Assembly: GCA_029964075.1 (NCBI GenBank)
Contig: CM057149.1
Coordinates: forward strand, 7,326,465-7,390,464
Direction: 5' to 3'
Length of the DNA stretch: 64,000 nt
DNA from: Patiria pectinifera
Lineage: Eukaryota > Echinodermata > Asteroidea > Valvatida > Asterinidae
Of the stretch, positions 37,925-64,000 are shown piece by piece; the stretch's first letter is position 1, and each line of letters opens with the position of its first letter. Under the pieces are notes generated by a model. It did no database searches, had not been told where the DNA came from, and worked only from the letters and a program-made list of their open reading frames with translations. The position numbers and the translations under genes were made by a program.

Positions 37925-39085
37925 ACTATCTCACTGACATGATGTACACTGTGAGATAGCACATCAACTATGTCCCTGACATAACGAGTGTGCTATAGAC
38001 AGTTGAGTGGTTTAATATGTTGAGGGTGCTATACACTGCGAGTGGACAGCAGATCAACTATGTCCAGGGCATATGGAGCATACTATACACTGTGAGTGGA
38101 TAGTATTATCAATTATGTCCCATGTTGAGGGTGCTATACACTGTGAGTGGACAGCAGATCAACTATGTCCAGGGCATATGGAGCATACTAAACACTGTGA
38201 GTGGATAGTATATCAATTATGTCCCATGTTGAGGGTGCTATACACTGCGAGTGGACAGCATATCAACTATGTCCAGGGCAAATATGGAGCATACTATACA
38301 CTGTGAGTGGATAGTATTATCAATTATGTCCCATGTTGAGGGTGCTATACACTGCGAGTGGACAGCAGATCAACTATGTCCAGGGCATATTGAGGGTGCT
38401 ATACACTGTGAGTGGATAGTATTATCAATTATGTCCCATGTTGAGGGTGCTATACACTGTGAGTGGACAGCAGATCAACTATGTCCAGGGCATATTGAGG
38501 GTGCTATACACTGCGAGTGGACAGCATATCAACTATGTCCAGGGCATATTGAGGGTGCTATACACTGCGAGTGGACAGCAGATCAACTGTGCCCAGGGCA
38601 TATGGAGCATGCTATACACTATGAGTGGATAGTATATCAATTATGTCCCATGTTGAGGGTGCTATACACTGTGAGTGGACAGCATATCAACTATGTCCAG
38701 GGCATATGGAGCATACTATACACTGTGAGTGGATAGTATATCAATTATGTCCCATGTGGAGGGTGCTATACACTGTGAGTGGACAACCCACGTATGTTGA
38801 GGGTGCTATACCCAGTGAGAGGACAGCATATACTATGTCCAGGGCATACTGAGGGTGCTATACACTGTGAGTGGATAGCATACCAACTACGTCCCATATT
38901 GAGGGTGCTATACACTGTGAGTGGATAGCATACCAACTATGTCCCATATTGAGAGTGCTATACGCTGTGAGTGGATAGCATACCAACTATGTCCCATATT
39001 GAGGATGCTATACACTGTGAGTGGATAGCATACAAACTATGTCCCATATAGAGGGTGCTATACACTGTGAGTGGATAGCATGTTA
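37925..39085 (+). repeat. Minisatellite, ~21 units of 50-54 bp
   Basis: Each unit reads roughly GAGGGTGCTATACACTGTGA, then GTGGACAGCA-ATCAACTATG, then TCCAGGGCATAT. In the left two-thirds two unit types alternate (GGAGCATACTATACACTG and GAGGGTGCTATACACTG), making a dimer of about 105 bp. The right third (38870-39075) is a homogeneous 50-bp array, and the left edge decays from 38030 to 37925. Confidence 0.92.
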
Positions 39086-40202: not shown

Positions 40203-40363
40203 TTAGTCACCATCATCATCTTCACCCCTATTGACTCGCAGGTTATTGGTACGAACCACCTTGAGGCTAGGGCAGCCGTGCATGCGATTGGCACCTTCCA
40301 CTGTGACACAGGTAGAGTCCAGATTCAGGAGGGACAGGTGGGGCAACTGCACGGCCTCAATGC
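40203..40363 (-). CDS. Gene 2 terminal exon: last LRR and acidic tail
   Basis: LPHLSLLNLDSTCVTVEGAN, then CPSLKVVRTNNLRVNRGEDD and stop TAA. Acceptor GGTTTCTTCTAG|. Confidence 0.88.
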
Positions 40364-43300
40364 CTAGAAGAAACCGCAACAGAAACAAATAGAGTTCACT
40401 ACCAAAAGGTTACCCATATGCGTGATTCACGAGATGGCCACATTCAATCGAAAGCGATTAACATCTTCATTTTTGGAACTACAAATAGAAGTCAAAGCAA
40501 TGAAACAAAGATAATTACAGATTAATACAAGTCTTTTCTGATGAATCATTTCAAATTAATGAATAAACACACCCTAATTATAAATAAATCCACGACATCT
40601 GCAATCCATTCCTGTTGCACATGGCCTCAGCATTATATATTTTTTGGTCACACACAAAGTTGGAATGTTTACGTTTGTATAACAAAGAGATCTGGTACAC
40701 AGTACCCTGTGGAGACATGTGCGTAATAGGGAACACAAGATTGTATATGTCCCCACAGGGCAATTTCTATAGGTGAATACGTCTCTACAAGGTAATCACG
40801 AAATAGATATATGGATTTTTTTCAAAAACTAGGAATTTCCAAGGTGTGTTATTCAGTCACAAATTGAAGTATTTATGTAAGGGATGTTAAGTCTGAAATT
40901 CATCCCAGGAACTTAATTCTGGTTAAAACAGGAGCATTTTGAAACTAGATTTTCAAACTCAAAATTTAAGTACACGAGAACAAAGAATTGACTCCACAAG
41001 GATACAAACTTCAGTATGGGTGTTTTATTTATATATAAATTCAGTATGTGTTTGTGTGGTACTGCGCCTAAACAATGAAGAACTGATAAATAATTGTAGA
41101 AAATCTATTTGATGTCGAAAAATGGTATCATTTCCAACTTTTTTCTTAGTCAGTCCAAACTTGACCATTGACAAGGATACTAGCAACAGGGCATCATGGC
41201 CGCCACTCATTAAGTCAAGTGGATGCTGTGAAGCCTGGACAAGTGAAGGACACTGACACTCACTGGTTCACATCTGTTGACATGTAATGCCACATGAATG
41301 CGTAACATGGAAGGCAAGGTTTTGTCAAGCGATAGGAGCAGAGTAGACTGGATTCCATACCGTCAGATTTCTTACCTCTGTTAGACACATCAGTTTTGCT
41401 CAGGTTCAGTCTTGTCAGATGCTCACACTTATTCAGAGTCTCAGAACAAAGAAACCTATTCTTAATCCTGTAAAGAGAAAGAAATGCATGACTGTCAGTA
41501 AAATGTTGAAAGGTACATAGTATCATTTGCTCTGTAGGGGTACTTCATTTTAAAGGTACAGTCCATCATGGTAGTTTTTGCATTTTGTTTGTTTGAAGCA
41601 ACAAAAGTGCTCAAAATCTAAAGAAGGGTGCTGAACAACTAACCTGTATATTCAGCTGTATATTCTGAGAAAAAAAAAACAGCATTGTAGGTTCTCGATT
41701 TCAAATCAAAAGTTGATGAATCATGTTTTGAATTGTGCCTGAATTCAGCGTCCGAGACACGTTCTCACTGAGCCGATTGCAGCTTCGCAATGTTGCGCAC
41801 CGATTCGACGATTTATAGCAACCGCGCGTGCGTGTGCGTCATGTCAAGTCTTTAGACCCACCGTTGGAAAGGCCTTCTTTTGCTGATTTCTTCAAAATGA
41901 CAGCATGCCAGAAAGAATAATTTCACAGGGAGTTTAGAGCCCTAAGTATGTTTTTCAACAATCATTACGTCAACTACTTTTTGGATGGCTGCAAATGATG
42001 GACTGCAGCTTTAAAGTAACAAAATTGCTCAAAATCTTAAAGCAATATACAACATTTGCAAACATCCAAAAACAAAACTACCAAATTATTATGAGGTGTG
42101 TTTCCAGGTATTACCAGTATAACCCACAAGATCATGAGTTCAATATTCCACACTATACAACACCTGAATAAATCCCCGTCATCTGATTGGTAGATCGTTG
42201 ATCACATGTCACTGAATTATTCGTACCAGCGCACGGGGCGCACGTGGCGCGCAGCGCACAGTGCAATGGAAGTTCTATTGCACGGTGAACAGAACTTCCA
42301 TTGCACGGTGTCACTGCTGCTGATAGAGGCGCTGTTTTAAATCAAGATAAACTGAATATGATATCATTATTCTCAACCTGTTGAACAGTTTGCATCAATA
42401 AAATATGATGAACTTGTCAAACTTTTAAACAGTTTTTAACCTGAATAAATTGGCTATTACAAGTCGACCAATCAGATGACAAGGATTTATTCAGGTGTTA
42501 TTTAAAACAAATAATGAATGTTTCACGTTCGTGCAATGGAAAGAACAGTTTCATTCGGTGACTCGGCTTCGCCTCGTGGAATGGAACATTTCATCAGTCA
42601 CCTCATGAAATTCTTCTTCCCATTGCACTCACAAACATTCATTATTTGTATATAACCCCTACATCATTTCCTTACTGTGTGGCAGCCATGCTGAGCACCT
42701 CCAGCTTTCTGAAGCTGCCAATGGCCATAGCTCCATGGTCTGTGACGGCTGTCCGGTCCAAATGAAGCTCCTTCAACTCAACCAACCCTGCTCAAGTCAG
42801 ACGAAAAAAAACCCCACCAATTATTACAAATTAACAAAATCAATCAATAACCATAAACTATCATGTGGTCCAGCTGTATTTTATCGAACTCTAGGGGTGC
42901 ACACCGGTAAATAGGCCTAAATCAATCCGCCGAGCTCATGAATAAAAGTTATACCCTCAAAATATTCTATATTAGAGAGTTCTGGGAGCCATAACATTGG
43001 GGAATTGAAGAGATATGGCAATGAACCTCTGGCCCGGACTTGGGGCTTCCAATTCTGAGCATTTTGGATACAATTGGGCTTGAAAGTGGCGCTATTTTGC
43101 CATGTTGTGGAGGGATCGTTTTTCGAGATGGCTGCCGTTCCGCTTTGGGGAAAATAGGGGTCGTCTTCTTTGGGCGAGAATTTCTCGAAAAGTCAATGGT
43201 CAACCCACCAAAAAATGAAAAGAAATTGAAAGACGACATGTCGATCATCATTTTTCTGTGCTGCTTAAATACCTGTGAGAGTTCTGAGTATTTTTAAAAG

Positions 43301-46300
43301 AATTTTGAAGTATGGGCATTTAGCACTAGTGTCTATGGGAATTTATTTGCAGGGTTGCATCCTATAAAGAATCACAAAGATGGCCGTTTCGCGCATGCGC
43401 TGTGCCGCGGCAGAGGTCTTTTCAGTGGGCGGAACCTACGGGGAGGGGGAAAAAAGTGTTTTAAAGGTATCAACCAGGGTTTTTCCGTCACGGATGCTCC
43501 CAAATCGTAAGAGAGCGGTAGGCTATCAGCCGATTACAACAATTGCTAGTTGAAACGGGGGGGGGGGGCATTTTGAGCTTAAAAGTAGCTGAAACTCAAT
43601 TTATTGTCGCTGGGGGCGCTCTACAGCTTAGCAGGGGCGAAAAAGTCACTATTTTCGGGCCTAATATCGACCTCGGATAATTTTTTTCTTTCATTTTTTT
43701 TTCAAAATATTGACTTTGGAGATATTCTGCTTCCCCTGAATGTGGTTTTGTGTTAATATTAAAAAGTTACCTGCTATTATAGGGTGCACACCGGTAAATA
43801 GGCCTAAATCAATCCGCCGAGCTCATGAATAAAAGTTATACCCTCAAAATATTCTATATTAGAGAGTTCTGGGAGCCATAACATTGGGGAATTGAAGAGA
43901 TATGGCAATGAACCTCTGGCCCGGACTTGGGGCTTCCAATTCTGAGCATTTTGGATACAATTGGGCTTGAAAGTGGCGCTATTTTGCCATGTTGTGGAGG
44001 GATCGTTTTTCGAGATGGCTGCCGTTCCGCTTTGGGGAAAATAGGGGTCGTCTTCTTTGGGCGAGAATTTCTCGAAAAGTCAATGGTCAACCCACCAAAA
44101 AATGAAAAGAAATTGAAAGACGACATGTCGATCATCATTTTTCTGTGCTGCTTAAATACCTGTGAGAGTTCTGAGTATTTTTAAAAGAATTTTGAAGTAT
44201 GGGCATTTAGCACTAGTGTCTATGGGAATTTATTTGCAGGGTTGCATCCCTAGGGCCACATTTCATTGCGCTGATCAGCACACAATTTTCGGCTATTCAT
44301 GGAGACCATAAGCAGTCAGCATAGCACAGCTCAGTTCAGTTCAATTTCAGTTATTTCCACAGTACAAAAACACCAATGAAAATGACAATCTTATAGAGAG
44401 CAGCAGAAAAACATTTTGAATAAAGTCGAAGATTAAGCAAACAATAAGTATGAAAGATTCTGTGGAGGGGCCCATAAAGAAGCAAAGTAGTGAGAAATGG
44501 GCATCTGAGCATGCATGTGCATTGAGCCGAATAATGACATTTTTTTTTATTAGTTTGTTTGTTTTGTTTAGCTTTGGAAGAAAACAATTGTAAAAGAAAA
44601 CAAGTGTACGAGTAAACAAGTGCAAGAAAATCAGTACCTGTACATCGGAATGTGAATGACCAGGCTCAATGAACATGCACCGTGAAAATTATACACGAAA
44701 TACTGTTAACCTTACAAAAGACGGGAACAAACAAATATGACTGATACGACTACGACAACGACAGGTCAGCAATGTACAGGCATATAAACAAATTGAAACA
44801 TCAACAGCAAAAGGCACGCTTACCCCAAAGGAAAAAGTCGGTTAAATCAGTGATGTAACAGCTGAAATGACCATGCGCTTAACTGTTAACACATCCGCTA
44901 TGAAACAGTGCTTAGGGTTCTCACAATTTTCAACTATAGTATGCGCAACTTTTCTGCTAACTGGTAAGCAGTGTCATGCAATTGACCCCTGGTAAAACAC
45001 CATCATGAATGTTGCACTTTGAGGAAAGAGACTTGTGGTGAAATTTTGGGTGGGAACATGTCAATTTTGATATCGGGTATGGACTCCACGAATGGACAGT
45101 AGAGGGCGCTTTGCGACCACTTTCAAGAGGCCCTGTGGAAGGAACACTCTGCGCGCATGTACTTGTTGGTGCACATACATGTAATAATAATAATAATAAC
45201 GAAGTCTTATATAGCGCACGTATCTACCAACAATTAGGTACTCAAGGCGCTGGAAATTATGTCAATTATTAAAGAAAGGTAAATAAAGTTTATGAGAAAC
45301 ATGAGACCCATTATGTAGCACCTTATAATGGTTTACAAGGTGCTGCGGCGCACATTGCAGCCACTGCCAGAAACACCGGGGCAAACCCCTTCTCTTAGCG
45401 ATAAGTGTTACTGGGTTCTTTAACGTGCATTACACAACACACATGGGACCTACGGCTTTACATCCCATCCGAAGGACAAAGCAATAATGGTAAAGTGCCT
45501 TGCTCAAGAGCACAAGCACCATGTTCCCACGGTCAGGATTCGAACCCATGCACCACGGCACACGAGTGGAACACCGTTACCATTGGACCACAGCGCCCCA
45601 CACGTATGGTGCCAAGTATTCGCAGCCTAATTCATTCCGAATGTGCACAAACCCATAGCGTCTCTGCGCGAGTGTTGGGTGTCATCAGCAAGGCATTCTT
45701 AATGTCCCTCCCAGTGGCCTCCTGCAACCTCCCTTTGTCGTTGTTGGGGCGGGGGGGGGGGGGGGTTAACTCATGCATTAAGTCCATATCACTTCACATA
45801 CATTATTTTAGAAGTATGGTACACTCAGTACATTCTATGAGCTTGTGAGAACAAAAACACACAAGCTTCAATACTCAGGAGAGCCTTGAAAGCAGGTACC
45901 AGTTTAAACCCACTGCTACAGCAGCCAGAGTTGTAACGAGTCAGTGATTTTATTTAAAAGAAGTGACTCGAGTCAAGTCGAGTCATTGGGTCAAGGGGGT
46001 CGAGTCGAGTCGAGTAGAGTCACAGTGTGTAGTCGAGTCGAGTCAAGTATTTAGCTCGAGTCAATTCGAGTCACAAATATTTGAGCACTATACAATAAAT
46101 AATCACAAGATAGAATGTCATTTTTTGGCAACACCACATTTGCCTCTTAATGAAAATAAAAAGGGGGTGCCAGCTGATCGCCATTCAACTAATGGGGACA
46201 CTGATCAAACCATGTATGTATATGTATACATTAGTCGCGAACAATCTAACGTGACGTGAACAAAAACCGGCGCCGGCGTAAGTCATTGCAAATATTTTTC

Positions 46301-49300
46301 GCAAGTAAGTTTTGCTTTTGTTTTTGGGACTCGAGTCTCATTAGCTTTCCTCGAGTCGAGTCGAGTCATTCTGATGAGGGACTCGAGTCGAGTCGAGTCA
46401 TTTGCTCGCAGTGACTCGAGTTTTGCTTTTATTTTTGGGACTCGAGTCTCATTAGCCTTCCTCGAGTCGAGTCGAGTCATTCTGCTGAGGGACTCGAGTC
46501 GAGTCGAGTCATTTGCCCTTAGGGACTCGAGTCGAGTCGGGTCACCAAAAATTGTGACTCGAGTCGGACTTGAGTCGAGTCATTGACTCGAGTCATTACA
46601 ACTCTGACAGCAGCAAGAACGACCCCATATAGCAAAGCTGACTGATTGAACAACGGAGCAACGTCACAGGAACAGAGGAAAACATCGATGTGCTGAAACA
46701 GGACAGAGGGCGAGAAGCACCGGATGTGGGGACAGCTATGTGGGACAGAAGACTCTGGCATACAGTTGTGACCCAGGATGACAACCTGGACTAAGCTAGC
46801 AAGTCCAAAACCCCCATGATGGCAAGTTGAGGTAGCTGGTCACCACCTGGACTCAAAATAAGTCTTGACAGTGTCTTTTCAGAAGACTGATGAGTCATCC
46901 TACCTTTGATATATTCCAGAGCCACGTCCGTGATCTTGGTATTGTTGAGAGACAACTTGGTGAGACTGCAGTGACAAATTAAGTGAAGAAAGGAGAAATA
47001 AAAACAGATAGGATGTAGCAGGATATGCAGTGATGATGACAACAAATGCATTATTCACAATCTCACCTCAATTTTTTTTGTCAAACAAAAATGATTCACA
47101 AAGACATCAGAAAAATATGAAAGGAGCACATTTCCAGATTTAGGTGATTATAAATGTGTATCCTGTGATTAGTCCATGATGAGAGAGAGTTAAAGAGGTT
47201 GTGGAATGCTCGAAGACATTTCCGTCATTTTTGGGGTATATGTAGCCTAAGGTGTGATGAAAAAAAAACGACTATTGTTTCTGTCATGAAATGAGTACAA
47301 AAGGTACTTTTGAGAACTATTTTTCTGGTCCTGTTTCGACCCGAACGTGCAATTTGTGTAAAAGTCGTCGCTGCGGGCAGCAAACAAAACACAGTGAATC
47401 GTGACGTAATAAACAGGACTCGTTTATGCTACTCTGCATCGGGAGTCCTGTTTATTACGTCACGATTTACTGTGTTTTGTTTGCTGCCCGCAACAACGAC
47501 TTTTACACAAATTGCACGTTCGGGTCGAAACAGGCATGACAGGACTTGAAAAACAGCTCTCAAAAGTACCTTTTGTACTCATTTTATGACAGAAACAATA
47601 GTCGTTTTTATTTCATTACACCTTAGGCTACATATACCCGAAAAATGACGGAAATGTCTTCGAGCATTCCACAACCTCTTTGAACTAGACACCAAAACTA
47701 CTCATAACAGTATGTCTATTAATTCTGTGCCATCATGCTGACTTACAAATCCTTTCACAAACTTAGACGGCATAGTTTGAGCACTTCCATTTTCCTCAAA
47801 TAAATCTTCGGTCTCACCACGAAGTGACGTATCGTGTGCGCAGAGTCCATAGACAATACGTCACTTCGTGGTGCACCCGACAAAAGATGTGGTCCAATAG
47901 TTATGGTGTTAATATGTTAGGCCATCAGCCTGGGGGTTTTGTCAGTATCAAATCAGGGCATAAATGATTATAGTGCGCATGCACAAGGTATACCGCCCCT
48001 AGAGTGGTAACAAGCATTTCGATGGACGTTTTGAAAAAAAGGGTGATAACACCCAAAAAGCTGCCACCGCTGCAATGCTATCACATATTTTCCAACTCTG
48101 GAGGTGTATTCCTTGCCAAAAAAACGCTATGACGATTATTCCCCTGAGTTGATACCGGCAGCCAAAATTTTGGACCGAGGCTGATGGCCTACATGGGTTC
48201 CAACATGAAAGCGAACACGATGCTTGTGTTCTTTGGCAAGACACTTTATTACAACTGCCTTTCTCCACCCAGGAGTATAAAGGGGGTACTGGTGAGGATA
48301 GTGACCAGACTGCGCGGATCACGTGCTGCCCCAGATAAAACTGATTAACAAAGGTAATAATTAGTGCTTCTGGGTATCCTTTTGGCAAAGTCGCCTCATA
48401 AATACCAATCCTACTTCTTAATATGTCATCCTTTCTATTTTACCTTTCTCTAATATTCGGTCTTTTATGACCTTAAGTATCAGAGAGTGAACGGCCATGT
48501 GCTTATACCTGGTCATATCGGCGATGTGATGGATGCCTTGATCTGTGATGTGAATGTAGTCGGTCAGATCCAATGCGACCAGCGGCATACCTGCAAGAAG
48601 AAAATACATCATGTCCAACCTGCTGAATAAAATCCGATCTTGGGAACTTTGACACCAGGACCCGGGAAATTCCACGCATACCTTGCATGCACTGTATCCA
48701 AGCCCATGCACCCCCCTTAAGGCATGTTTGGAATTACTTTAGTTTAGTGTCAAAGTTTTGTTTTGTGGAGTTGTTTCATCTTGTTGATAGCTCTATCTAC
48801 CTCCTCAGTCACTTGGCTGCGCTTGCCAGGGACTAGTCTATGGAATATCTCCTTGCACAGCAAGGGTCTATGATACGTGAGCAGATTTGGCGATTAATTA
48901 TGCAAAACAAAACAGCATCTTGACCTCTAAATTCTGACCATTCACCAGTGGGTGCCTTCTATCGGGTCTTCTGTAACCCGTTGACGTATTAAAAAAAAAC
49001 CTGGCATCCAAATTGACCAATCAACAGCTCAGTCCACATTTCTGATCAAAATGACATAAATGCTTCTATAGGCTACTCTGATTGGCTGGCTGGCGTGCGG
49101 GGTCTCTTAAAATGTACATGCTATGATATATCAGACGTTCAAGCTTGACTTTGCCCACGTGAATGTCTGATCCTCAGACTAGATAGGGACTGGCACAGGG
49201 AACAAAATCCACATGAGCTTGCAAGTTACCTGCAATGCAGCACAAGCCCATGTCGGTTGTCGTGTGTCTGTCTGGCATCTGAAGCTGCTTTAGTTCCAGG

Positions 49301-55300: not shown

Positions 55301-58300
55301 TTTAGCAGAGTAAATTTAAACTTTCTTTTGGATCTCAAAACTTTATTTAAAAATAACTTCATTTTCTTTAAGACCATCATAATTGGAAAATTGTCTAAGT
55401 GGCATAATGCATTTTCAATATCATAGACACAATTTAAGAGTACAAAATCTCAATTAGGGGTACCGATCTTCAAACTGTGTACATTAAGTGATGTTAGTTT
55501 TTTTACATCTTATTTAAACTCGTCAGTAAGCAATAGGTTGTGGGTTTAAGTCCCACTCAAGCAAAATTTCTCAGTCATCATCGAGTTTTCAGTAATTGTA
55601 AAATTAAGTTACTGAAAGGCAAAGTGCAATATTAAAATGTTGAGAAAGGTTGCAAAATGTAAAGATGTTGAACACTAATAATACGTGCCTAATACTCCCC
55701 CCCCACAAAAAAAAATCTTCAAAATGCATCTGGTGGGTTTTGTTAGGTTTTGCAGGATTGGGGAACCTAATACATCAAATGGGATTGGATAAAGAGATTC
55801 TTGGTAAAAAGGCAGAGGGAGTTAGAGTTGTTGACACGCTTACTGTTGATGGAGAGGAAGGCCTGATCAGTGAGTAGCGGGCAAGCACTGAGACTCAGCC
55901 TACTGATGTGGACGTGGAGCCTCGCCGCTTGCAGCAACTCATTGGTGGTGTACTTGTAGCAGTCTAACGTCAAATATTGCAGATGACTGCGGATACAGAA
56001 CAGGTCACTGAGGATGAAAATGAAGCCTGTTCCCTCCCCTCCCCCGCCCCTCCCCTCCCCCAGTATGACGGTTGTTCATTTTCTGTACATTCACATTGCA
56101 CTATCTTCTACTAGTCTATATTTTAACAGAAATGAAACTTTCTTTTAATGCATGTTTACCATTACTAGTGCTGTGCTTTTTCAAATAACCATGTGAGTAT
56201 TTGATTATTGGAACTTGCAATATACGCCAAAAATAGGGCCACTCCATCACATCTCTCGGTATTGCGACTTCCATAATTTTTGATTTAAGGATGGTACCAG
56301 CATGCGGTTTTCACAGCAGTAATGCTGAGATTGTGCTCTTTTCAAATCTGTAATTAAAAAAATGTACAGTCGACAAACGACTGATTTAGCTTGATCGCAT
56401 CACATCCTAACCATTACTCCAAGTTTTACACCCATGAGGATATACATATTATCAGCCTCTATCTACGCAATGCATAAAAGGGCCAACATCTAATAATAGC
56501 CATGTTCATTTTGAAACGAATATTTGAACTCTGTCAACCCACCACGGCAAGAACAAATTCAGCGTCTTGGGTCTGAGCACCCCGGACTTCTTCAGCTCTT
56601 CCACCAGTCGGCTCGCGAGGTGCGGGGGCAGCGCCTCCAGCGTTGTGACAGGCTGCCGGGTGCGCCCTTCGATTCGTTTACTGACGCAGCGCAGGCACAG
56701 GTCCTGCAGGGCTGTGATGGGCTTGTCGGTGGGGCTAGTCGGGCTCTGGGCTTGGGAGACGACTGCAGCCGCCAAACGCGACAATGCTGCTGCAGCTGTT
56801 GGCAAATAAAAAGAAATCAAGACACTGTTTTATTTTTACTGAAATTTACTTATCAGTGAGGATGCAAATAGCTGCAAGGGGGAAGGGGGAAGGGGGGGGG
56901 GGAAGGGGAAGCATGCGGAGAGGTAGGGGGGAAATCTCCCATTGCTGTTCCAAGACCTCAAATTACAAAGACCTTTTACAAAGATCAAGTAGTGACAGGA
57001 CCATTAGTCAATTGGATTTGTGACGTAACTTACGCCTACGCACTAATAGCAACGTGTGAACGTCTCTAGTCCAAGGCTGGTCAAAATGTAATCGCAAAAC
57101 TTCTGGGTCCTGGCTCCCTGCTGTAGGTTATTAATGCGCGCAACTACAGGTTACCAGCGGTGCAACCAGGCCGAGTAGGCTGGTTCCAAATAGTCGGCTA
57201 GCGTAGTCAAACATCGTCGACTAGACAAGAGTTTGGGTTAAATTTGGTCGAGCTGTATTTAACCATTGGTCAACAATAGTTCCTGCGCAAATTTGCCCAA
57301 TGTTTGCCTTGGGTAGGACTATGGGTGGACTGACCCTGGATGCATGAGAATCAACCTTTGACCTTTGACCTACCTGCTCTCTGTGGGCTGGGTGCCTCCT
57401 CCACGTCACGCTGTTCTTCCTGATGGCCAAATCCGTAGTTGAAGTTCAAAGGTCGTCTGCCATCGATGAGACGATTGCCGTCACCCCAGTCGTGGTGTGC
57501 TCTCCCTGCCGCTGTGAATCAAATTAAATGATTAGTATACACAAATGTGACAAATAGTTTGAGAGGAGACAGTCAATATGGGCTCTGTGCGCCAACAAAC
57601 GAGGGTGCGTTTTTTGTGAGCTCCGTGTACGGGACACACCGTGTGCGTACTGTACTGTACTGTACTGGTTTGCGAGTGAAGTACGCACAACTTCCTGAAT
57701 GTGCCAATTATTAGCCACAGCGTTTTCGCGTGAGCGTCATGCATCCTCAGCAGGCGAATATGTTCAAATTTAACTTGGGATGGTCTCCGAGACTATTCCC
57801 ACCTCCAATAACATTGGAAATGATTTGAAATACGCAGTGAATCATGGACCAGGAACCAGTCTAGGTCTCCACCTACTCTCCTTTTCTGGCCGTTTGGGGA
57901 GTACTTGCGCACCGAGCTCATAAGCTTCCGAAGGTGAGCTTCGGGTATTTGTCAACTTCCAATAACAAGTTAAGCTAATATCAACTATACATCCAAATAA
58001 TAATTAAGCCAAGACAGTTTTATAAATTACTCCAAAAGTCTTCCAGCTATATGCTTAGTCCATTTCAAATGACCATTTCATAAATGATAATCATCCTGAG
58101 CACTTTCAATGAATCTGGTATCACGCTCTAGCAAAGGTCAATGGACTGATACATAAATCCTGCACACTATGCACATGGGCAATATACGGTTTGTATGGCA
58201 AGTGGTTTTGGTGGGAGTGTTTTACTAACCTCCCATGGGATGTGGATTGGGGGCGGGGCCACCCCAAAGCATGGCTTCCTCAGCCCCTCCCACCCCGACC

Positions 58301-61300
58301 TCATCCACACCCATCATCTCTTCATCATCCATGGCCCCTCCCAAGTCATCAAAGTCCACTCTGGCCCCGCCTACTTCCATAGGCTCCTCCTCCTGCTCCT
58401 CATTGGCTGGACTGCTGTCGTCACCGAGGCTCAGGGCTTGGCCATGCCCCCAGCTGTGATGGCTTGATTGGGATCGGTGGTGAGGCGGGGCATGGGGCGG
58501 GGGATGGTGTGGGAGGAGTTGAGACAGGGAGGGAGGCGGTTGCTGCTGATTGGTTGGCTGGGATTGGCTCTCTGGGTCAGGTGACGCGGCAGGCAGGCTT
58601 TGGGCTTCTTGTTGCACTATTATATAAGACCATAAATTTACACGTCAATATGGCCAGTTCTACTTCATGCAAATGTGAAAGTGAAACCAAAATTTGCAAA
58701 AATTGAACATGGGGAGTGTAATGACACATTGACCTATTACCGTTTGCGAGTTAGCCATGCCCCTAAGACAACCCTATGGAGTTTTTGCACACTATGTTTT
58801 GATTGTCTCAGATTTTGCGCGTTCCACATCCATTTGTATATCATGTAATTGGACATTTTACAAGCTGCGTTGACGTGATCTTGATTCGATTCTACAGCGA
58901 TAGGTCAACTTCATGAAACTGTTCATCGTTATAAAATTTGTGAATGATGGAGATGCAAAAGAACACACCCTCATCGTTGAAACCCATTTTTTTTTCTCTA
59001 CTCTTTTTTTTTGAAACTCAGGATAAAGACAAAATTCTGCATCTAAAGTTTGCCCCCAAAATGGCCATTTCGCTCAGGCCAAAGATTTCTGAAATAAAAT
59101 TGCTGATCAACGCTGGAAACATGCTGCATTATTGAAGGCATTTTTCCCGTTCTGTGAAAGCCATTTTCATTGTGAAAGCCATTTTCATTGTATATTTGTG
59201 AATTTTAACCGTAACCTCACCCAACCCATCAAAGCCCCACAGCATTTTTTGTTGTTGGAATCTGTCAGGATGGGTACAGTACCCCTAAACTGACAGTCTT
59301 TTACATTGGGTTGGCACACCTCCAGAAACTAAGTCAAAGATATGTGAGTGCCATTTCCAACATGGTGTTGGAATTTGCCAGGATGGGTATGGTTCCTAGT
59401 GATAATGTTACGGAGTTAGGGTTAACCAAAATCATATTAAAATTGGATCATTCAGGACTGTTAGGGATTGTAACATATATGTGACCTGTTCTGTCAAAAG
59501 CAGACGCTTCTGGGCAGAGGTTGAAATTAAGATAGGGCCAAAAAACGCTGTGGGGGTGATTTTTTTTTATTTTCAAATTTTTGCAGATTTGTAATCCTGA
59601 ACATGTCTAAAATATACTATAAAAATTTGAAACCCTAAGTTGAACTCTAAATGTAGTATTTTTGACGATTTTTTTAAGGTATATCAGTTAAAGAAATGTC
59701 TGTTTTGAGACTTTAGTGGCCATTTTCTCCGTTTTCTACTTTTCGACACAATGAACTTCAAAATAGCATAACTTTGCACAGGAATGACCTGATTAAAAAA
59801 TTCAGCCACCTATTAAAAGGAAAAAGGACATATTTTAACAATATGCAAAAATCTCATTTTTGACCTTGTGCCCAGAAAAGTCTGATTTTGACAGAACATA
59901 TGTACATGCCATGTAAAATAATTTGTCCACATTTCGTACTGCAAACTAATTTTAAAACCTGAATAATTTTCCACACACAAAAATCCTCAAGTTTTAATCT
60001 CGGGTAACCACGGTTTAGACTCACATGAAACAGGTTCTGCTGTTCCCAGCTTTACAACCAGGTTGCCGGTTGGCGTCAGCTTGAGTTCTTCTAACGTTGA
60101 GTCTAGCTCTCTGGAGGTGAATAACCTGTGCGGAAACGGCTGCGGAATATAGCAAGAGGAAATAAAGTACAAACACTGGCAACCTTTATGAATAACAGTG
60201 TGAGATTGCGGAAAAATGAACAATCCATAAAATATACGGCAGTGGGTTTGATCCTAGAGCAACGTAGGGTCTATGGCATATGTTTGTATTTGCTTTTAGG
60301 CACCCTTTAAAATACCCATTTCTTTATTCTACATAATAACAATAATAATAACTGTATCTATATAGCGCCTTTTTCCAGAGGATACAAAGTGCTGGGGGAG
60401 AATGCAACCAAAGACAGGTAAATGAAGTATATGAACATATGAGACCCACTATGTAGCACCTTTTTGCTAGGTGCGGCGGCGCATATTGCTGCCACTGCCA
60501 GAAAACACCGGGGCAAACCCCTTCTCTTAGCGATAAGTGTTAATGGGTTCTTTAACGTGCATTGGATTACACAACACACGGGACCTACGGCTTTACGTCC
60601 TATCCGAAGGATGAAGCAACAATGGTAAAGCGCCTTGCTCAAGAGCACAAGCACCATATTCCCACGGTCAGGATTCGAACATGTGCATGTATGTAAAGCT
60701 TTTCAAGGTAAACATTCCTTCACGGTAAAAGCCCAGGAACCTCCATACTTTAAAAAGAAACAACATCCTGAAATCAGGGAAAAAAGATGACAACTGGAAT
60801 ACCATGACGGTGCTCTACCAGCTGAGCTATTCAGCTCTATGTTGGCGGTTTTCCCAATTTTATTAATATCTTGGTTCAAAGCCATAAATCCTTAAATACC
60901 ATGTATGCAGGGATCACGCCCAAACTCACTTTGCTAGCAAAATTAGCAAAGCTGCCAAATTAGGGGACAGCAAAGTGGGATCAATCAGTGCAGAAACATC
61001 TTTTTACTATAATTCTTAAAACAAATCTTAAAATGACAGAAAATTTGCTAACCAGAAAATAATTGCTTGGCTTAAAAAAACCCCCAAAACAGGTGACTAC
61101 CCAATAATGCTGTGATATTCATATTGCTTTTGATTGGTGTCCTGTGGTTTTTACCTTTTGAGCCTACATTTGCTAAGCAACATCTTTTTTTACTTAGCAG
61201 CTAGGTGAGATCGACTCAAAGTCTTTTACCTGTATGAGATTAATGTGAATCAGGTCCGAGTGTTGACTCTTGATGAAATCCACCACAGTTTGGAGAGTGG

Positions 61301-64000
61301 CTGTAGAAGGGAACTTCTCTCGCATGCTCTGCCCCGAAGGTAATCGGACCTATAACCATCAAAACAAAACACATGTTAGATAACAGTTTGTGAGCATTTT
61401 ATAATGGATGTGACATTTCCACAAAAATCTGTAAACAAATTTTCCCACCTGTGGAAACAGAATTAAAAAAATTAAGATCCTTTCCTATTTTTGACTTGTA
61501 TACCGTTAACTATCAAGGGCTTTACCCTGCTAAAAGGATGAGAATGGTGAACCGTTGTCGACAAAGTTTTTACTGTTGCTGTCGCCGTCTGACAGTGGCA
61601 TTTGACAATGAAGTGATGCAACTTTGCTATTAAAATAACATCACAGTTGTGTACATGCATAGTTTTTTCTTTTGAATATTTGAACCGGTAAAATGCTGTT
61701 CGAATTGTCGGTTATTGATCAAATATTCAAATAGTTAATATATCCAGGAAATCCCAACTCCCATCCCTATGGCTACTCAGTATGGCTACTGGCACACTCA
61801 GTATGTTACTTCAGAGTGACAGTTGGAAAAAAATCACTATGATGGGACGCGAACCCATGACCTCCTACTTTCTAGCGCAGACATCTTACCACTCGACCAC
61901 AGCGCTAACGGGATCGATTGGCTGGTTTGAATCTGATGTACATAGCAGCGGGTACTGCATTAACTATTCATAACCAGCTGTTAGCTCGGTGGTCGAGTGG
62001 TAAGCGTCTGTACTAGAAAGCAGGAGGTAGTGGGTTCGAGTCCCACCCGAGTGAATTTTTCCAACTTTTACTCGGGAAGGTAACACACTGAGTATACAGG
62101 GCGAGTAAAAAAAAAGTGAAACCCAAATGTCCGGACCATCATTTTAGTGAAGTTCTGCATGTAGCCCTTGCCAATTCTAGGATATGAAAGCCCAATTCAT
62201 GGGCTTTCTTTTAGTACAAGAATCATTCAAATCACTCATGTAATTTTCAAATTATGGATCACAAGAAGGTAGGTGTTCTTTCAGAAAAGCGAAAACAAAT
62301 AGGGATGTGTGTGGTCATTATGAGTTGTTTTCGTTTGGCTGAAAGAACGCACACCTTTTTTGTGATCCATGGACAGAACTTAAAATGGTGGTTGTGTTTA
62401 AAATTTTGTAACTTGAAAAGTACATGCATGATTTGAGTGATTCTTGTACTAAAAGAAAACATGAATTGGGCTTTTATATCCTAGATTTTGAAAGTGCTAC
62501 ATGCAGAACTTCACTAAAACAATAGTTCTGACATTTGGGTGTCACTTTTTTTTACTCACCCTGTACAGTGTTTATACGTCGGTGAAGGGCAAAACCTAGT
62601 TAGAAATTTCATTTTTCTTTCATTTACCTGAAGCATGCACATGGTTGGAGTGCCAGGCGTTGGCTTAGACTCTTGAGAAGCCGTTGCCTGTTGGGATGCC
62701 TCCATTTTAGCGCCCCCAGGAGGTTCCGCGGCAGTAGCGCCAGGCTGAGTAGGGGGAGTTGTCCCCACGCAGGTCTCAGGCTTGGGGCTTGTTGGTAGCT
62801 TGCCATGCTGGTGTCTGGCCTCCTTATCGGCTTCGATGTTCTTTAAGATGTTACTCCTCGCCTGGAGTTAGGACAGAGATTCTGGCATTAGTTGTACCTT
62901 GTTTATGATTGACCCATCAAGTGAAAGTGCATTGAAGAATGCATATGTGTTGTTCAGCTTGTGTCATATTATCCATATTGCTTGATACAAATAAATGTTT
63001 AACTTGCAATTCTTGAACATGTCTGCCGAGCCATTATTTGAAGAAAACTTGTGAAATGTATCAGTGTTGCAGTACTCGTACTCAGTACATGTACTGGAGT
63101 ACTACTTGAGTCCTTTTTTTTTGAGTACTCGTACTCGTACTCGAATGTCAAAGTACTCGTACTCGAAATGACAGTACTCCTACTCAGGCAGCAAAGTACT
63201 CGTACTCGACATGTCGAAATTGTACTTGGTCATCAAAGTACTTGTACTCGAATAGCAGTACTCGAAAAAAATTGTATAGCTTGACTTATCACGACTTCGT
63301 TTTATTATCGATACTTTCAGTTGGAAATGGTTGAGTGGCTTGCAGAGAAATCAAAGTATCCTGATATTTCTCTGTGCACGTCCGGACAAACACATAACCG
63401 TGAGTGGGTCTGTATATCGGTCTGAATGGGCCTGGGCCAATTACGCCCAAACGAACCATTTGCCGTATGGCCGTATTCGGAAATATAAGTACTTGTACTC
63501 GTACTGTACTTGTACTGCTAATTCTGAAATATTGAGAGCTAGTCCCATTGAATGCTACAGTTGTATCATGCTGCAGTTGCTGACCACGGACTCTGCTGCA
63601 GTTGGTGACCGTAGACTCTGAAGCAGTTTGGCCTTGAGATTTAGGATCGGATGGATCTTGCTACACTAAACAAGTCTGTCATTTTGACAGTCAAAAAAAT
63701 AGTCAAAATATCGTAGTGAGTTAGGTGAAGTGAGGCGGACCACTTGCCTGTTTCGCCTGCAGTCTGGCCTGCCGAGCTTCCACGGCAGCCTTTTCTCTCT
63801 GCTCCTTCTCCCATCTCTCTTTGTCCTGTCTCTTCTTCTCTGACAAGGAGAACCGACTCACGACGTCCTGCTGCTGAAACCTGCTCTCGTCTGACGTCGG
63901 TGGGACGGCGGGATGTGTCAGACCTTGAGGGGAGTCTCCTGGAGGGTCTGATGATGGGGCTGATACGGGCGGTAAGCTGAAGGGAAGGTAGCTGGCATCG
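40203..64000 (-). CDS. UBX-domain and leucine-rich-repeat protein, C-terminal 887 residues (18 exons)
   Basis: Exons in order: >64000-63748, 62861-62628, 61349-61230, 60139-60025, 58616-58230, 57511-57374, 56795-56546, 55986-55844, 55086-55012, 53326-53174, 52324-52284, 50678-50504, 49301-49230, 48590-48509, 46965-46904, 42787-42676, 41467-41376, 40363-40203. Every junction keeps the frame; the summed in-frame length is 888 codons with stop TAA at 40203-40205. Window residue numbering: charged helix 40-110; UBX domain about 157-236; Pro/Gln/His-rich then acidic linker 241-369; BC-box-like LQDLCLRCV at 445-453 and Cul2-box-like LPPHLASRL at 471-479; about 14 LRRs (500-870) of the LxxLxLxxTxVTDxG type; acidic tail GEDDDGD. 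UBX domains bind p97/VCP, and BC/Cul2 boxes with LRRs mark Cullin-2 substrate receptors (VHL, ZYG11, LRR1). The combined role is inferred. I know no vertebrate protein with this order. Confidence 0.85.
40697..41020 (+). repeat. Dispersed repeat family W, copy 2
   Basis: Collinear with 7635-7940. Lies in the last intron of gene 2. It contains an internal hairpin, ACCCTGTGGAGAC against GTCCCCACAGGG. Confidence 0.65.
41376..41467 (-). CDS. Gene 2 exon q: LRR
   Basis: Cys-containing RFLCSETLNKCEHLT, then RLNLSKTDVSNR. Acceptor TCTCTTTACAG|, donor AGAG|GTAAGA. Confidence 0.87.
41554..42010 (-). mobile_element. TTAA-flanked MITE, family Y, copy 4
   Basis: TTAA at 41550-41553 and 42011-42014, orientation as copy 1, within the intron before exon q. 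Confidence 0.83.
42041..42101 (-). mobile_element. Family X MITE terminal fragment
   Basis: TTAA at 42037-42040, followed by AGCAATATACAACATTTGCA and AACATCCAAAAACAAAAC: the end of a family X element, truncated after about 60 bp. Confidence 0.7.
42158..42499. mobile_element. Inverted-repeat element (AACACCTGAATAAATCC ends)
   Basis: About 40-bp arms, AACACCTGAATAAATCC followed by GTCATCTGATTGGT, and the complement at 42455-42499. The inner part contains repeated GTGCAATGGAAGTTCT words. Confidence 0.7.
42508..42648. repeat. Hairpin repeat (CAAATAATGAATGTTT arms)
   Basis: A 16-bp perfect outer stem with further pairing of CGTGCAATGG/CCATTGCAC and a GGCTTCGCCTCG centre. Directly abuts the previous element. 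Confidence 0.7.
42676..42787 (-). CDS. Gene 2 exon p: LRRs
   Basis: LVELKELHLDRTAVTDHGA and FRKLEVLSMAAT. Donor CACACA|GTAAGG, acceptor TTGAGCAG|. Confidence 0.87.
42894..43362. mobile_element. TA-flanked MITE, family T, copy 1
   Basis: 469 bp between TA sites (42892-42893 and 43363-43364). Inverted ends GGGGTGCACACC and GGTTGCATCC. Virtually identical to copy 2, 0.9 kb away. Open frames on both strands are duplicated with it and have no recognisable family. Confidence 0.8.
43782..44250. mobile_element. TA-flanked MITE, family T, copy 2
   Basis: 469 bp between TA sites (43780-43781 and 44251-44252), same orientation as copy 1. The 417-bp spacer between the copies is not repeated elsewhere in the window. 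Confidence 0.8.
45182..45597 (-). mobile_element. tRNA-derived SINE, family S1, full length
   Basis: On the minus strand it begins GGCGCTGTGGTCCAATGGTA (A box) and has the B box GGTTCGAATCC. The body includes TTCGGATGGGATGTAAAGCC and TGCACGTTAAAGAACCC. The tail is GCGCTATATAAGACTTCGTT plus ATT repeats. The TATATAAG plus microsatellite end suggests LINE-dependent mobilisation. Confidence 0.85.
45926..46606. mobile_element. hAT-like element H2 with GAGTC pentamer arrays
   Basis: Ends CAGAGTTGTAA and TTACAACTCTG with a perfect 8-bp duplication ACAGCAGC (45918-45925 and 46607-46614). GAGTC pentamers fill 45965-46075 and 46329-46596. The centre is unique and non-coding. Related to H1 and H3. Confidence 0.9.
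46904..46965 (-). CDS. Gene 2 exon o: LRR
   Basis: LTKLSLNNTKITDVALEYIK. Acceptor TTTGTCACTGCAG|, donor AAAG|GTAGGA. The following intron (42788-46903) is one of the longest in the gene and holds a hAT-like element, a SINE and twin TA MITEs. Confidence 0.88.
47194..47679. mobile_element. TTAA-type palindromic MITE, family P
   Basis: Near-perfect inverted repeat, arms of about 235 bp around a short centre near 47440 (AAACAGGACTCGTTTATGC). Ends AGAGGTTGTGGAATGC / GCATTCCACAACCTCT; TTAA at 47190-47193 and TTGA at 47680-47683. Lies within a gene 2 intron. Confidence 0.85.
47815..47873. repeat. Perfect 18-bp stem hairpin
   Basis: CACCACGAAGTGACGTAT at 47815-47832 and its exact complement at 47856-47873, with a 23-base loop. 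Confidence 0.8.
47920..48189. mobile_element. TA-flanked MITE with GGCCATCAGCC ends
   Basis: 270 bp. Left GGCCATCAGCC, right GGCTGATGGCC, a perfect 11-bp inverted end, flanked by TA on both sides. Confidence 0.75.
48509..48590 (-). CDS. Gene 2 exon n: LRR
   Basis: MPLVALDLTDYIHITDQGIH. Donor ACCAG|GTATAA leaves two bases. Read-through of this donor would stay open for about 29 more codons, but only splicing continues the LRR pattern. Confidence 0.86.
49230..49301 (-). CDS. Gene 2 exon m: LRR
   Basis: LELKQLQMPDRHTTTDMGL. Strong acceptor (TTTTTCAATTACAG|) and donor GCAG|GTAACT. Phase 1 at both ends. Confidence 0.86.
49480..50516. repeat. Minisatellite, ~22 units of ~48 bp, overlapping exon l
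   Basis: Units read ATAACTGGTCCCC-GC, then 8-10 variable bases, then CAGATGGT-CATGGGTTACC. The rightmost unit coincides with the 3' end of exon l and its donor (50484-50516): ACTGGTCCCCCGCCT, then TTGCAGATGGTG. In the central part units form a ~150-bp trimer. Non-coding apart from that overlap. Confidence 0.88.
50504..50678 (-). CDS. Gene 2 exon l: LRRs next to a minisatellite
   Basis: IEALVSLRSLNIARNRI and LPELMALNVMLIEG repeats. Acceptor TGCCCAAG|, donor TGCAAG|GTAGGC. The last 13 coding bases and the donor lie inside the outermost unit of the adjoining tandem array. Confidence 0.88.
50729..50871 (-). mobile_element. tRNA-derived SINE, family S2, copy 1
   Basis: Minus strand: B box GGTTCGAGTCCCACCC preceded by TAGAAAGCAGGAGGTCGT, then body CCAACTTTCACTCGGGAGGT, CACTGAGTGTACAGTGTT and AGGGCAAAACCTAG. 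The head is interrupted by the element at about 50875-51256. Confidence 0.75.
50875..51256. mobile_element. MITE with AGTCTGCGGTTTCTGGTATG arms
   Basis: Left GGC-poly(A)-AGTCTCCGGTTTCTGGTATG, right the complement CATACCAGAAACCGCAGACT-poly(T)-CTGGCC. CTAAG occurs at both borders. It sits beside SINE S2 copy 1, and SINE-like tail sequence (GTGAAGGGCAAATCCTAA) reappears at 51262-51300. Confidence 0.7.
51559..51747. repeat. Inverted repeat with ~58-bp arms
   Basis: TTCGCTCTTTTCAC, CCATTGGGCATGCACAGCC and TCGATCTGGCAACTT on the left are repeated in complement at 51690-51747. The loop holds ATCACTGAACCGG-type words. Confidence 0.8.
52284..52324 (-). CDS. Gene 2 exon k: 41-nt micro-exon, part LRR
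   Basis: FTNLRSLGLEQTK. Unusually short. Supported by acceptor CTCTTTCAG|, donor CAAG|GTGAGT and exact phase on both sides. Confidence 0.82.
53174..53326 (-). CDS. Gene 2 exon j: two LRRs
   Basis: LSNLVTLALEETSVSDEGIK and LTHLSLNRTNVSDSMLPFL. The T-x-V-S-D core is the best example of the repeat consensus. Acceptor CATTCCAG|, donor CACAG|GTATAG. Confidence 0.9.
53432..53847. mobile_element. Solo LTR (TGTAACG...CGTTACA) with 4-bp duplication
   Basis: 416 bp beginning TGTAACGGAC and ending TTCGTTACA, flanked by GTAA at 53428-53431 and 53848-53851. TGTAACG...CGTTACA ends are typical of Gypsy-type LTRs. No internal retroelement genes. An AATAAATAAGAG word on the minus strand suggests that transcriptional orientation. 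Confidence 0.75.
54234..54759 (-). mobile_element. TTAA-flanked MITE, family X, copy 6 (nested)
   Basis: TTAA at 54230-54233 and 54760-54763, reverse orientation, inserted into copy 5. Both ends are intact (GGGAAGATACAACATTTGC; complement AGGGAATGTACAACATTTGC). Confidence 0.85.
55012..55086 (-). CDS. Gene 2 exon i: LRR
   Basis: One repeat, LKKLQYLNVSNNKQLTDGIL. Phase 1 at both ends. Acceptor CCTGTAG|, donor AGAG|GTATGT. Confidence 0.87.
55844..55986 (-). CDS. Gene 2 exon h: first LRRs
   Basis: HLQYLTLDCYKYTTNELLQA, then ISRLSLSACPLLTDQAFLSI: two leucine-rich repeats. Acceptor TATCCGCAG|, donor ACA|GTAAGC. Confidence 0.87.
56546..56795 (-). CDS. Gene 2 exon g: BC-box/Cul2-box-like segment
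   Basis: Ala-rich start, then ITALQDLCLRCVSKRIEG and LEALPPHLASRLVEELKKSG. This fits the Elongin-C-binding pattern LxxxCxxx-phi and the Cul2-box pattern phi-P-xx-phi-xxx-phi. It resembles the N-terminal region before the LRRs in ZYG11-family proteins. The donor (TTGCC|GTGGTG) is weak but is the only one giving phase 2 for the next exon. Confidence 0.78.
57008..57160 (+). repeat. Dispersed repeat family U, copy 2
   Basis: Matches 9395-9545 (CGTGTGAACGTCTCTAGTCC, GGCTCCCTGCTGT). Intronic. Confidence 0.5.
57374..57511 (-). CDS. Gene 2 exon f: linker
   Basis: 45 whole codons plus split ends. AAGRAHHDWGDGNRLIDGRR, then PLNFNYGFGHQEEQRDVEEA. Good acceptor (TTGATTCACAG|) and donor (GCAG|GTAGGT). 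No domain recognised. Confidence 0.8.
58230..58616 (-). CDS. Gene 2 exon e: low-complexity linker
   Basis: Largest exon seen (387 nt). Gln/Pro/Ser/His-rich (NQQQPPPSLSQLLPHHPPPH), then strongly acidic (NEEQEEEPMEV, DEEMMGVDEVG). Probably disordered. The acceptor has a poor pyrimidine tract (ATATAATAG|), but both ends keep frame with neighbours. Confidence 0.78.
59473..59908. mobile_element. MITE with GTTCTGTCAAAA-CAGAC inverted ends
   Basis: The left GTTCTGTCAAAAGCAGACG, followed by TTCTGGGCA, is matched in complement on the right (GTTCTGTCAAAATCAGAC, TTCTGGGCACAAGG). The interior is AT-rich; target duplication not clear. Confidence 0.7.
60025..60139 (-). CDS. Gene 2 exon d: UBX domain, second half
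   Basis: PFPHRLFTSRELDSTLEELK, then LTPTGNLVVKLG: the S3/S4 loop, helix and final strand of UBX. The usual F-P-R loop reads F-P-H followed by R. Donor CAT|GTGAGT leaves one base. Confidence 0.9.
60334..60690 (-). mobile_element. tRNA-derived SINE, family S1, copy 2
   Basis: Minus strand, collinear with 45182-45597 (TGCACGTTAAAGAACCC, GCGCTATATA, ATT repeats). The tRNA head is cut off just past the B box (GTTCGAATCCTGACCGTGGG). Confidence 0.83.
60806..60925 (-). mobile_element. tRNA-derived SINE, family S3, copy 2 (fragment)
   Basis: Minus strand TGAATAGCTCAGCTGGTAGA (A box) plus a body shared with 37700-37835. The B box is lost. Confidence 0.6.
61230..61349 (-). CDS. Gene 2 exon c: UBX domain, first half
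   Basis: 40 codons, phase 0. VRLPSGQSMREKFPSTATLQ is the beta1-beta2 hairpin and start of helix 1 of a UBX (ubiquitin-like) fold. The Arg of the R-L-P-x-G motif, one of the p97-contact residues, is present. Confidence 0.9.
61495..61770 (+). mobile_element. Fragment related to the hAT-like MITE at 4699-5172
   Basis: Shares GGGCTTTA-CCTGCTAAAAGG, GAACCG(T)TGTCGACAAA, AATAACATCACAG and TTTGAACCGGTAAA in the same order. The left terminus is not found. Confidence 0.6.
61786..61915 (-). mobile_element. tRNA-derived SINE, family S2, copy 2
   Basis: Minus strand TGTGGTCGAGTGGTAAGA (A box), TAGAAAGTAGGAGGTCATGG, B box GGTTCGCGTCC, then TTTTTTTCCAACTGTCACTC. It is in inverted orientation to copy 3, 60 bp away. 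Confidence 0.75.
61976..62612 (+). mobile_element. tRNA-derived SINE, family S2, copy 3, split by a MITE
   Basis: Plus-strand head GTTAGCTCGGTGGTCGAGTG, B box GGTTCGAGTCC, body TTTTTCCAACTTTTACTCGG. The body continues as TACAGTGTTTATACGTCGG after the insertion at 62097-62563. Confidence 0.8.
62097..62563. mobile_element. Long-palindrome MITE, family K, copy 2 (TA target)
   Basis: 467 bp flanked by TA (62095-62096, 62564-62565). Ends CAGGGCGAGTAAAAAAAAAG and complement CAGGGTGAGTAAAAAAAAG. Self-complementary over most of its length. The uninterrupted SINE at 50729 confirms the empty site (GAGTGTACAGTG). Confidence 0.9.
62628..62861 (-). CDS. Gene 2 exon b: pre-UBX segment
   Basis: 78 codons, phase 0 at both ends. 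It begins ARSNILKNIEADKEARHQ, the basic helix usually found just before UBX in UBXN1-like proteins, then Pro/Thr/Ala-rich sequence. It ends with MCMLQ, the start of UBX strand 1. Confidence 0.87.
63062..63526. mobile_element. hAT-like element H3 with TACTCG hexamer arrays
   Basis: Left end CAGTGTTGCAGTACTCG, right end TACTGCTAATTCTG. Subterminal GTACTC/TCGTAC hexamers fill 63070-63270 and 63485-63515. Flanks AAATGTAT and AAATATTG agree in only the first four bases, so the right limit is provisional. Unique centre, non-coding. Confidence 0.65.
63748..64000 (-). CDS. Gene 2 exon a (partial): Pro-rich then charged helix
   Basis: Open from the window edge (first base completes a codon outside). 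Encodes a Ser/Pro-rich stretch, then RFSLSEKKRQDKERWEKEQR, a likely coiled coil, as in UBXN1-type proteins upstream of UBX. It ends in CAG before a GC donor (|GCAAGT). Only this cut keeps the frame into the next exon. Confidence 0.85.

Follow-up and report, generated by a model that had tools for sequence, protein, structure and literature searches.

The UBA-UBX adaptors of the p97 segregase, among them UBXN1/SAKS1, FAF1, FAF2, UBXN7 and p47, combine an N-terminal UBA domain with a UBX domain, and p47 additionally pairs its UBX domain with an SHP motif (PMC5559722) in a bipartite arrangement (PMC5042407). For p37, the SHP box and the UBX domain are described as sitting on neighbouring p97 N domains (PMC10641518). 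LRR proteins serve as substrate receptors of Cullin-2 ligases (CRL2): ZYG11B and the ZYG11-ZER1 family are described with a BC box, a Cul2 box, then LRRs and finally an ARM domain (PMC13201589), and in LRR1 the LRRs come before the VHL box, a PH domain standing in front and a zinc finger behind (PMC8682755). UBXN7, for which a UIM and a UAS domain are reported (PMC9358472), is reported to bridge CRL2-LRR1 and p97 (PMC9358472; PMC3349548). It contacts the neddylated cullin through its UIM and is not itself a substrate receptor. Ligase function and p97 binding also meet on one chain in gp78, HRD1, UBE4B and HOIP, which are E3 enzymes of the catalytic kind and do not serve Cullin ligases as substrate receptors. 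The p97-binding elements described for them are a VIM in gp78, a VBM in HRD1 and UBE4B and a PUB domain in HOIP, and the tabulated passages name no UBX domain for any of them (PMC10641518). The preliminary description of the locus studied here had stated that, in animals studied so far, the UBX and Cullin-2 receptor functions meet through separate proteins, with UBXN7 as an example. A single chain with both ligase function and p97 binding is not entirely without precedent, given these four E3s.

Here, we describe a gene of the sea star Patiria pectinifera whose predicted 964-residue product contains, in order, a UBA domain, a charged stretch, a UBX domain, two SHP-type motifs, a VHL-box-like segment and an LRR domain. 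With the UBA-UBX adaptors it shares the N-terminal UBA and the UBX domain, but the UBX domain is central and is followed by about 650 residues that hold the two SHP-type motifs, the VHL-box-like segment and the LRRs. In contrast to UBXN7, neither a UIM (one pattern searched) nor a UAS domain was detected, and SEP was likewise absent among the Pfam matches. The order BC box, Cul2 box, LRR is the same as in the ZYG11/ZER1 receptors of CRL2; compared with ZYG11B, however, the loop between the boxes is six residues shorter and a UBA-UBX-SHP part stands in front. The ARM domain that follows the LRRs in the ZYG11 family is absent, as the protein ends right past the LRRs with no ARM among the Pfam matches. 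LRR1 of CRL2-LRR1 also has an LRR domain and a VHL box for CUL2, whereas here the candidate box precedes the LRRs, and a PH domain and a zinc finger are absent among the Pfam matches. Among the matches listed from the open PubMed Central literature, we found no description of a UBX domain joined to a Cullin LRR receptor. The modules are known and the combination is new within the literature examined; annotated relatives may well exist.

Gene structure and a second copy

The window, i.e. the whole stretch of 64,000 nucleotides that was analysed (C21:7326465-7390464), carries the gene on its minus strand. Spliced from 63999 to 40203, the window part comprises 18 exons with 2,667 bases and 888 residues and has one terminal stop (Table 1), which bears out the single frame across 18 exons that had been proposed; the coordinates, exon count and motif strings given earlier were also correct. 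All 17 acceptors in the window are AG, and the 17 donors consist of 16 GT and one GC. The latter belongs to exon 4 (63748) and forms a GC-AG intron (CAG/gcaagt) that is kept in both gene copies. The start of the gene lies beyond the window edge, where upstream sequence adds three exons, the remainder of exon 4 and the start codon. The full gene thus has 21 exons and 964 residues, all joined in frame. Residue numbers refer to the full protein and are 76 higher than in the window part.

Table 1. Exons and candidate motifs of the UBX-LRR gene (positions in the window; residues of the full protein)
Feature	Position	Strand	Remarks
Exon 4	63748..64000	-	23 bases continue outside the window; low-complexity stretch, then charged helix-like stretch before UBX; GC donor
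Exon 5	62628..62861	-	end of charged stretch, spacer, first UBX residues
Exon 6	61230..61349	-	UBX core (VRLPSGQSMREKFP...); also recovered by PF00789 in the genome scan
Exon 7	60025..60139	-	end of UBX with FPHR loop
Exon 8	58230..58616	-	acidic Pro/Gln/His-rich linker; weak acceptor
SHP-type motif 1, WGHGQAL, residues 372-378	58432..58452	-	exon 8; preceded by H370
Exon 9	57374..57511	-	linker exon
SHP-type motif 2, WGDGNRL, residues 454-460	57468..57488	-	exon 9; preceded by H452
Exon 10	56543..56795	-	candidate VHL box, up to start of LRR domain
Candidate BC box, ALQDLCLRCV, residues 520-529	56683..56712	-	pattern match
Candidate Cul2 box, LPPHLASRL, residues 547-555	56605..56631	-	pattern match
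Exons 11-21	40203..55986	-	roughly 15 LRR units, then the stop codon
Exons 11-15	55844-55986, 55012-55086, 53174-53326, 52284-52324, 50504-50678	-	LRR part
Exons 16-21	49230-49301, 48509-48590, 46904-46965, 42676-42787, 41376-41467, 40203-40363	-	LRR part

Repetitive open frames on the plus strand at 38016-38849 (IHCEWTADQLCPGHMEG...) are probably a tandem repeat and not a gene, and an open frame on the minus strand at 31688-32137 resembles one of the first exons of a membrane transporter gene, perhaps an MFS-like one. Rfam placed two tRNA-like stretches, perhaps tRNA-derived repeats, on opposite strands within intron 5 (61834-61904 and 61983-62054); all that Rfam and ARAGORN returned was tRNA-like.

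Scanning the genome (613.5 Mb, 1,020 contigs) with PF00789 located, via its UBX exon, a second copy of the gene at C21:7757329-7784746, 389 kb away on the same contig. This copy has all 21 exons at equal lengths, with intact splice dinucleotides and the same frame, and the reading frame is therefore more than chance. The copies differ at 20 of 964 residues and show no indels across 2,895 coding bases; overall, 20 nonsynonymous and 32 synonymous changes give a dN/dS of 0.19. UBX with its 191 sites and UBA with its 115 are free of nonsynonymous changes. Elsewhere, dN/dS is 0.27 and 0.33 for the two linkers and 0.14 for the LRRs, and the candidate box has 0.18, from 1 nonsynonymous and 2 synonymous changes.

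We also compared exons with introns between the copies. In linker exons 8 and 9, 8 of 525 aligned bases are changed, whereas introns 7-9 have 116 differences in 2,679 bases (p 0.0012); these two exons contain no gap events, compared to 14 in the same introns (p 0.15). Exon 10 diverges at intron level (8/253 versus 39/1,121, p 1). For exons 2-7 (17/931 versus 368/4,815 in introns), the p value of 1.8e-13 is too small, given that the comparison includes introns 2 and 5, whose divergence is probably inflated. Exons 11-21 differ at 19 of 1,168 bases versus 318 of 9,229 in introns (p 0.00043; intron 11 included, introns 18 and 19 left out). Divergence stands at 27.8% in intron 1, 19.3% in intron 2, 9.9% in intron 5 and 8.1% in intron 11, values that are probably inflated by misaligned insertions, and the comparisons for exons 8 and 9 and for exon 10 are free of these introns.

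The neighbourhood of the two copies is collinear over about 90 kb or more, with offsets of about 385-391 kb, 90-98% identity and some off-diagonal repeats, among the matches listed (plus strand, at least 150 bases, identity of at least 90%). Because the whole neighbourhood is collinear, the second copy is probably a retained haplotype or a recent duplication and not an independent orthologue, and dN/dS may therefore reflect polymorphism. A decaying or assembly-made chimera devoid of function would gain from this, in that a second copy within such a collinear block is support that is not fully independent. Yet neither copy contains a stop, a frameshift or a lost splice dinucleotide, and the overall dN/dS with its 20 nonsynonymous and 32 synonymous changes also speaks against decay, so that we regard such a chimera as very improbable.

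Intron 18 of the window copy harbours a 1.4 kb element (42888-44252) with an internally repeated 468-base segment (42895-43362 and 43782-44249). Its counterpart near the second copy is 97.7% identical and lies 3' of the gene (C21:7754884-7756246). Given these two locations, the element is probably mobile and differently placed in the two copies. Other UBX exons are also paired on one contig, namely C14:43804795 with C14:44012277 (207 kb apart, one strand) and C3:1067578 with C3:1095146 (28 kb apart, opposite strands), which suggests duplicates or haplotypes kept in the assembly.

Predicted p97-binding elements and the exon 7-8 junction

Pfam confirmed the UBX domain that had been claimed, with PF00789 scoring well over its curated cut-off (62.1 bits, cut-off 21, E 6.1e-17). 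UBX domains contact p97 through an arginine of strand beta-1 and an FPR loop. In the predicted protein, the arginine of LQVRLP aligns with that of the PDB matches UBXN4 and FAF1, and the loop reads FPHR where both of these have FPRR. The N-terminal UBA domain, which is encoded outside the window, lies at the Pfam threshold with UBA_7 (27.2 bits, cut-off 27) and just under it with PF00627 (22.2 bits, cut-off 22.4). Ahead of the UBX domain is a charged helix-like stretch, delimited by eye to residues 118-182, of which 118-160 are encoded in exon 4. A coiled coil beside UBX is reported to be needed by FAF1 and FAF2 for stimulating p97-UFD1-NPL4, and UBXN1 is reported in the same paper to have no significant effect on this complex (PMC9377798). 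By analogy, and as speculation, the charged stretch could act like the coiled coil of FAF1 and FAF2.

SHP motifs have been defined as aromatic-x-G-x-G-x-x-L (PMC5559722) or F-x-G-x-G-x-x-h (PMC8181520), and UFD1 is said to carry two such boxes (PMC10641518). The linker downstream of the UBX domain contains two SHP-type motifs, which in context read HHSWGHGQAL (W372) and HHDWGDGNRL (W454) and follow the Derlin-1-like form H-x-W-G-x-G-x-x-L; the second copy preserves both of them as WGxGxxL. A scan of the protein for the strict pattern FxGxGxxL found no match. The C-terminal end of Derlin-1, RHNWGQGFRLGDQ (PDB 7czb), includes HNWGQGFRL, with the histidine two residues before the tryptophan as in both linker motifs. 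In Derlin-1, H240, W242, F246 and R247 are described as contacting p97, and changes at H240, Q244 and F246 as disrupting p97 binding (PMC10575581). When aligned with Derlin-1, both linker motifs lack equivalents of Q244 and F246. The UFD1 SHP box is FRAFSGSGNRL, with N233 and L235 reported to contact p97 (PMC5042407), and motif 2 combines the Derlin-type H-x-W-G with the UFD1-type G-N-R-L.

At least two WGxGxxL motifs occurred in 1 of 50,000 whole-protein shuffles and in 0 of 50,000 linker shuffles, and at least one occurred in 120 and 111 of 50,000, respectively, all of these being counts for a W-G form that was chosen post hoc. A looser SHP pattern made for this analysis (F or W, an optional spacer, and L, I, V or M at the end) turned up one or more times in 1,767 of 50,000 shuffles of the whole protein, and 22 of 50,000 shuffles of the linker had two matches or more. 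Searching exon 9 against the PDB returned four engineered or ankyrin-repeat proteins (best E 0.0067), which matched outside the SHP motif and were judged to be chance. Since an N-terminal UBA domain and two SHP-type motifs accompany the UBX domain, the predicted p97 side of the protein is stronger than the preliminary description had claimed.

The linker exons also bear on whether the locus encodes two adjacent genes or alternative transcripts, that is, a UBA-UBX protein ending past exon 7 and an LRR protein begun in the linker exons. We consider this quite unlikely. It is true that exons 8 and 9 have weak acceptors, which are better than 72.9% and 75.3%, respectively, of 1,539 intronic AGs, but the acceptor of exon 13 within the LRR part is weaker still (66.9%). 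Similarly, intron 7 holds the hexamers AATAAA (59571) and ATTAAA (59998), but 12 of 18 other scanned introns (intron 1 left out) hold one as well. In-frame methionines from residue 396 onward also favour a split; if the locus were split, however, motif 2 would stay on the LRR protein, and p97-type motifs within exons 8 and 9 fit a UBX protein. Moreover, frame and phase are continuous over the 21 exons, and the exon 7-8 junction is retained in both copies. Alternative acceptors for exon 8 at 58607, 58604 and 58571 are all in the same frame, so the frame is independent of any single exon 8 site. Based on this gene structure, one transcript is likely.

Candidate VHL box and LRR domain

The strings LQDLCLRCV and LPPHLASRL, which had been put forward as BC box and Cul2 box, are both present in exon 10 and fit in order the BC-box pattern and the Cul2-box pattern, the latter PhiPxxPhixxxPhi as given in PMC5216831. 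The BC pattern occurs once in the protein (at 520), the Cul2 pattern twice (at 547 and 747) and the ordered pair once. Of 20,000 shuffles of the whole protein, 3,182 contained the BC pattern, considered alone, and 341 contained the ordered pair, which also arose in 389 of 50,000 shuffles of exon 10. Smith-Waterman alignment with ZYG11B gave a score of 47 (shuffle mean 25.0, sd 4.3; reached in 4 of 3,000 shuffles), and the best ZYG11B alignment in the whole protein is the one at the box.

The preliminary description had looked to profile searches for the UBX, LRR and ZYG11 families. The UBX and LRR profiles were significant, but the ZYG11-family profile, which we built from human ZYG11B and two ZYG11-family-like genes of the same genome, scored 10.3 bits on the box, more than on any of 9,998 shuffles, with an E value of 0.36 in a set of 10,000 sequences. 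On the whole protein this profile reached E 0.0037, from five weak stretches that lie mostly in the LRRs and of which none is significant alone. No Pfam family exceeded its cut-off at the box, where GPP34 (E 0.14) was the sole match, and phmmer of the box against the PDB returned two unrelated matches (SsuA and PknG) and no VHL-box protein. Single-sequence AlphaFold models of the box had mean pLDDT values of 50.5 and 59.0, with helices on both boxes at low confidence; in the 61-residue model, helix 6-19 covers the BC box and helix 35-48 most of the Cul2 box, and of the model features these helices alone are consistent with a VHL box. Foldseek with these two low-confidence models found no PDB match at E 0.001 or better; with E allowed up to 10, there were 6 matches for one model and 11 for the other. 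As for possible partners, Elongin C and CUL2-like exons were found in the genome. Since the ZYG11-family-like genes sit elsewhere, on C3 and C10, the UBX-LRR gene is an additional gene.

The LRR domain is well supported by Pfam, with LRR_4, LRR_8 and LRR_6 all over their cut-offs. The LRRs described earlier are therefore present, but we count about 15 units, with the register set by hand, instead of about 14. Against the PDB, the LRR part matched 38 generic LRR proteins. Its own genome yielded at least 24 matches, 22 of them in the two copies, and other LRR matches at C21:18111506 (30%, E 1.9e-7) and C15:13839247 (32%, E 1.3e-4), all among the best candidates scored. A scan of viral contigs found no relative, and one of bacterial and archaeal genomes gave four LRR loci at 28-33%, which we set aside as generic likeness. 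Upstream of the gene, an LRR-like frame (L010:2749-3624), which may be NLR-like, is 23.6% identical to the LRR part, with E 9e-4. A minisatellite-like array of ggggaccagttatagatg... repeats, recognized by eye, occupies 49480-50500 on the exon 15/intron 15 side.

Similar-looking helical caps occur on other LRR proteins. The candidate box could accordingly be such a cap that does not bind Elongin C or CUL2, on a UBA-UBX-SHP adaptor of p97 whose LRRs choose the substrate; the protein would then bring LRR partners to p97 and would not be a ligase subunit. This fits the weak outcome of the box tests other than motif fit and one pairwise alignment, as well as the low confidence of the box models. 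A comparable case involves SDS22, an LRR protein. p97 is reported to act on a complex with SDS22 in a ubiquitin-independent manner (PMC10350818). However, both boxes fit their patterns, order and spacing at the ZYG11B position, and so few shuffles (4 of 3,000) reached the ZYG11B alignment score that we deem the cap, and with it a protein outside the ligase, somewhat unlikely. Taken as a BC/Cul2 box, the segment nevertheless makes for a predicted Cullin-2 side that is weaker than the p97 side, as it draws on how well the motifs fit, on the order of the domains and on an alignment with ZYG11B that is modest.

Proposed function

The single-chain ligase-to-segregase adaptor envisaged in the preliminary description stands as far as its one-chain architecture and its p97 side (UBA, UBX and SHP-type motifs) are concerned; on the Cullin-2/Elongin side, none of the Pfam, PDB, profile and fold searches matched the box significantly. 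Judged from these sequence features, we see an even chance that the protein is a UBA-UBX adaptor of p97 with an additional Cullin-2-type LRR receptor module, which would unite tagging and extraction in one chain. The LRR solenoid would select the substrate, and the BC/Cul2 box would dock Elongin C and CUL2, such that the substrate becomes ubiquitylated. The UBA domain might then hold the growing ubiquitin chain, the UBX domain and SHP motifs would grip p97 via two different N-domain sites, and the tagged substrate could be handed straight to the segregase. That the substrate is both tagged and unfolded on this one carrier, acting as CRL2 substrate receptor, ubiquitin-chain holder and multivalent (UBX plus two SHP) p97 adaptor, is a possibility that we put forward tentatively.

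The jobs of holding the target for tagging, sensing the tag and calling p97 are usually split between proteins, and the parts found here suggest one protein for them. If this is true, one chain would take on the role that UBXN7 has as a bridge from CRL2-LRR1 to p97. How Cullin ligases hand ubiquitylated substrates over to p97 is an active question, and a gene in which receptor, ubiquitin binder and p97 adaptor are naturally fused would show which partners evolution found worth tethering. It would also offer a compact system for reconstitution and a natural model for the targeted extraction of proteins from complexes.
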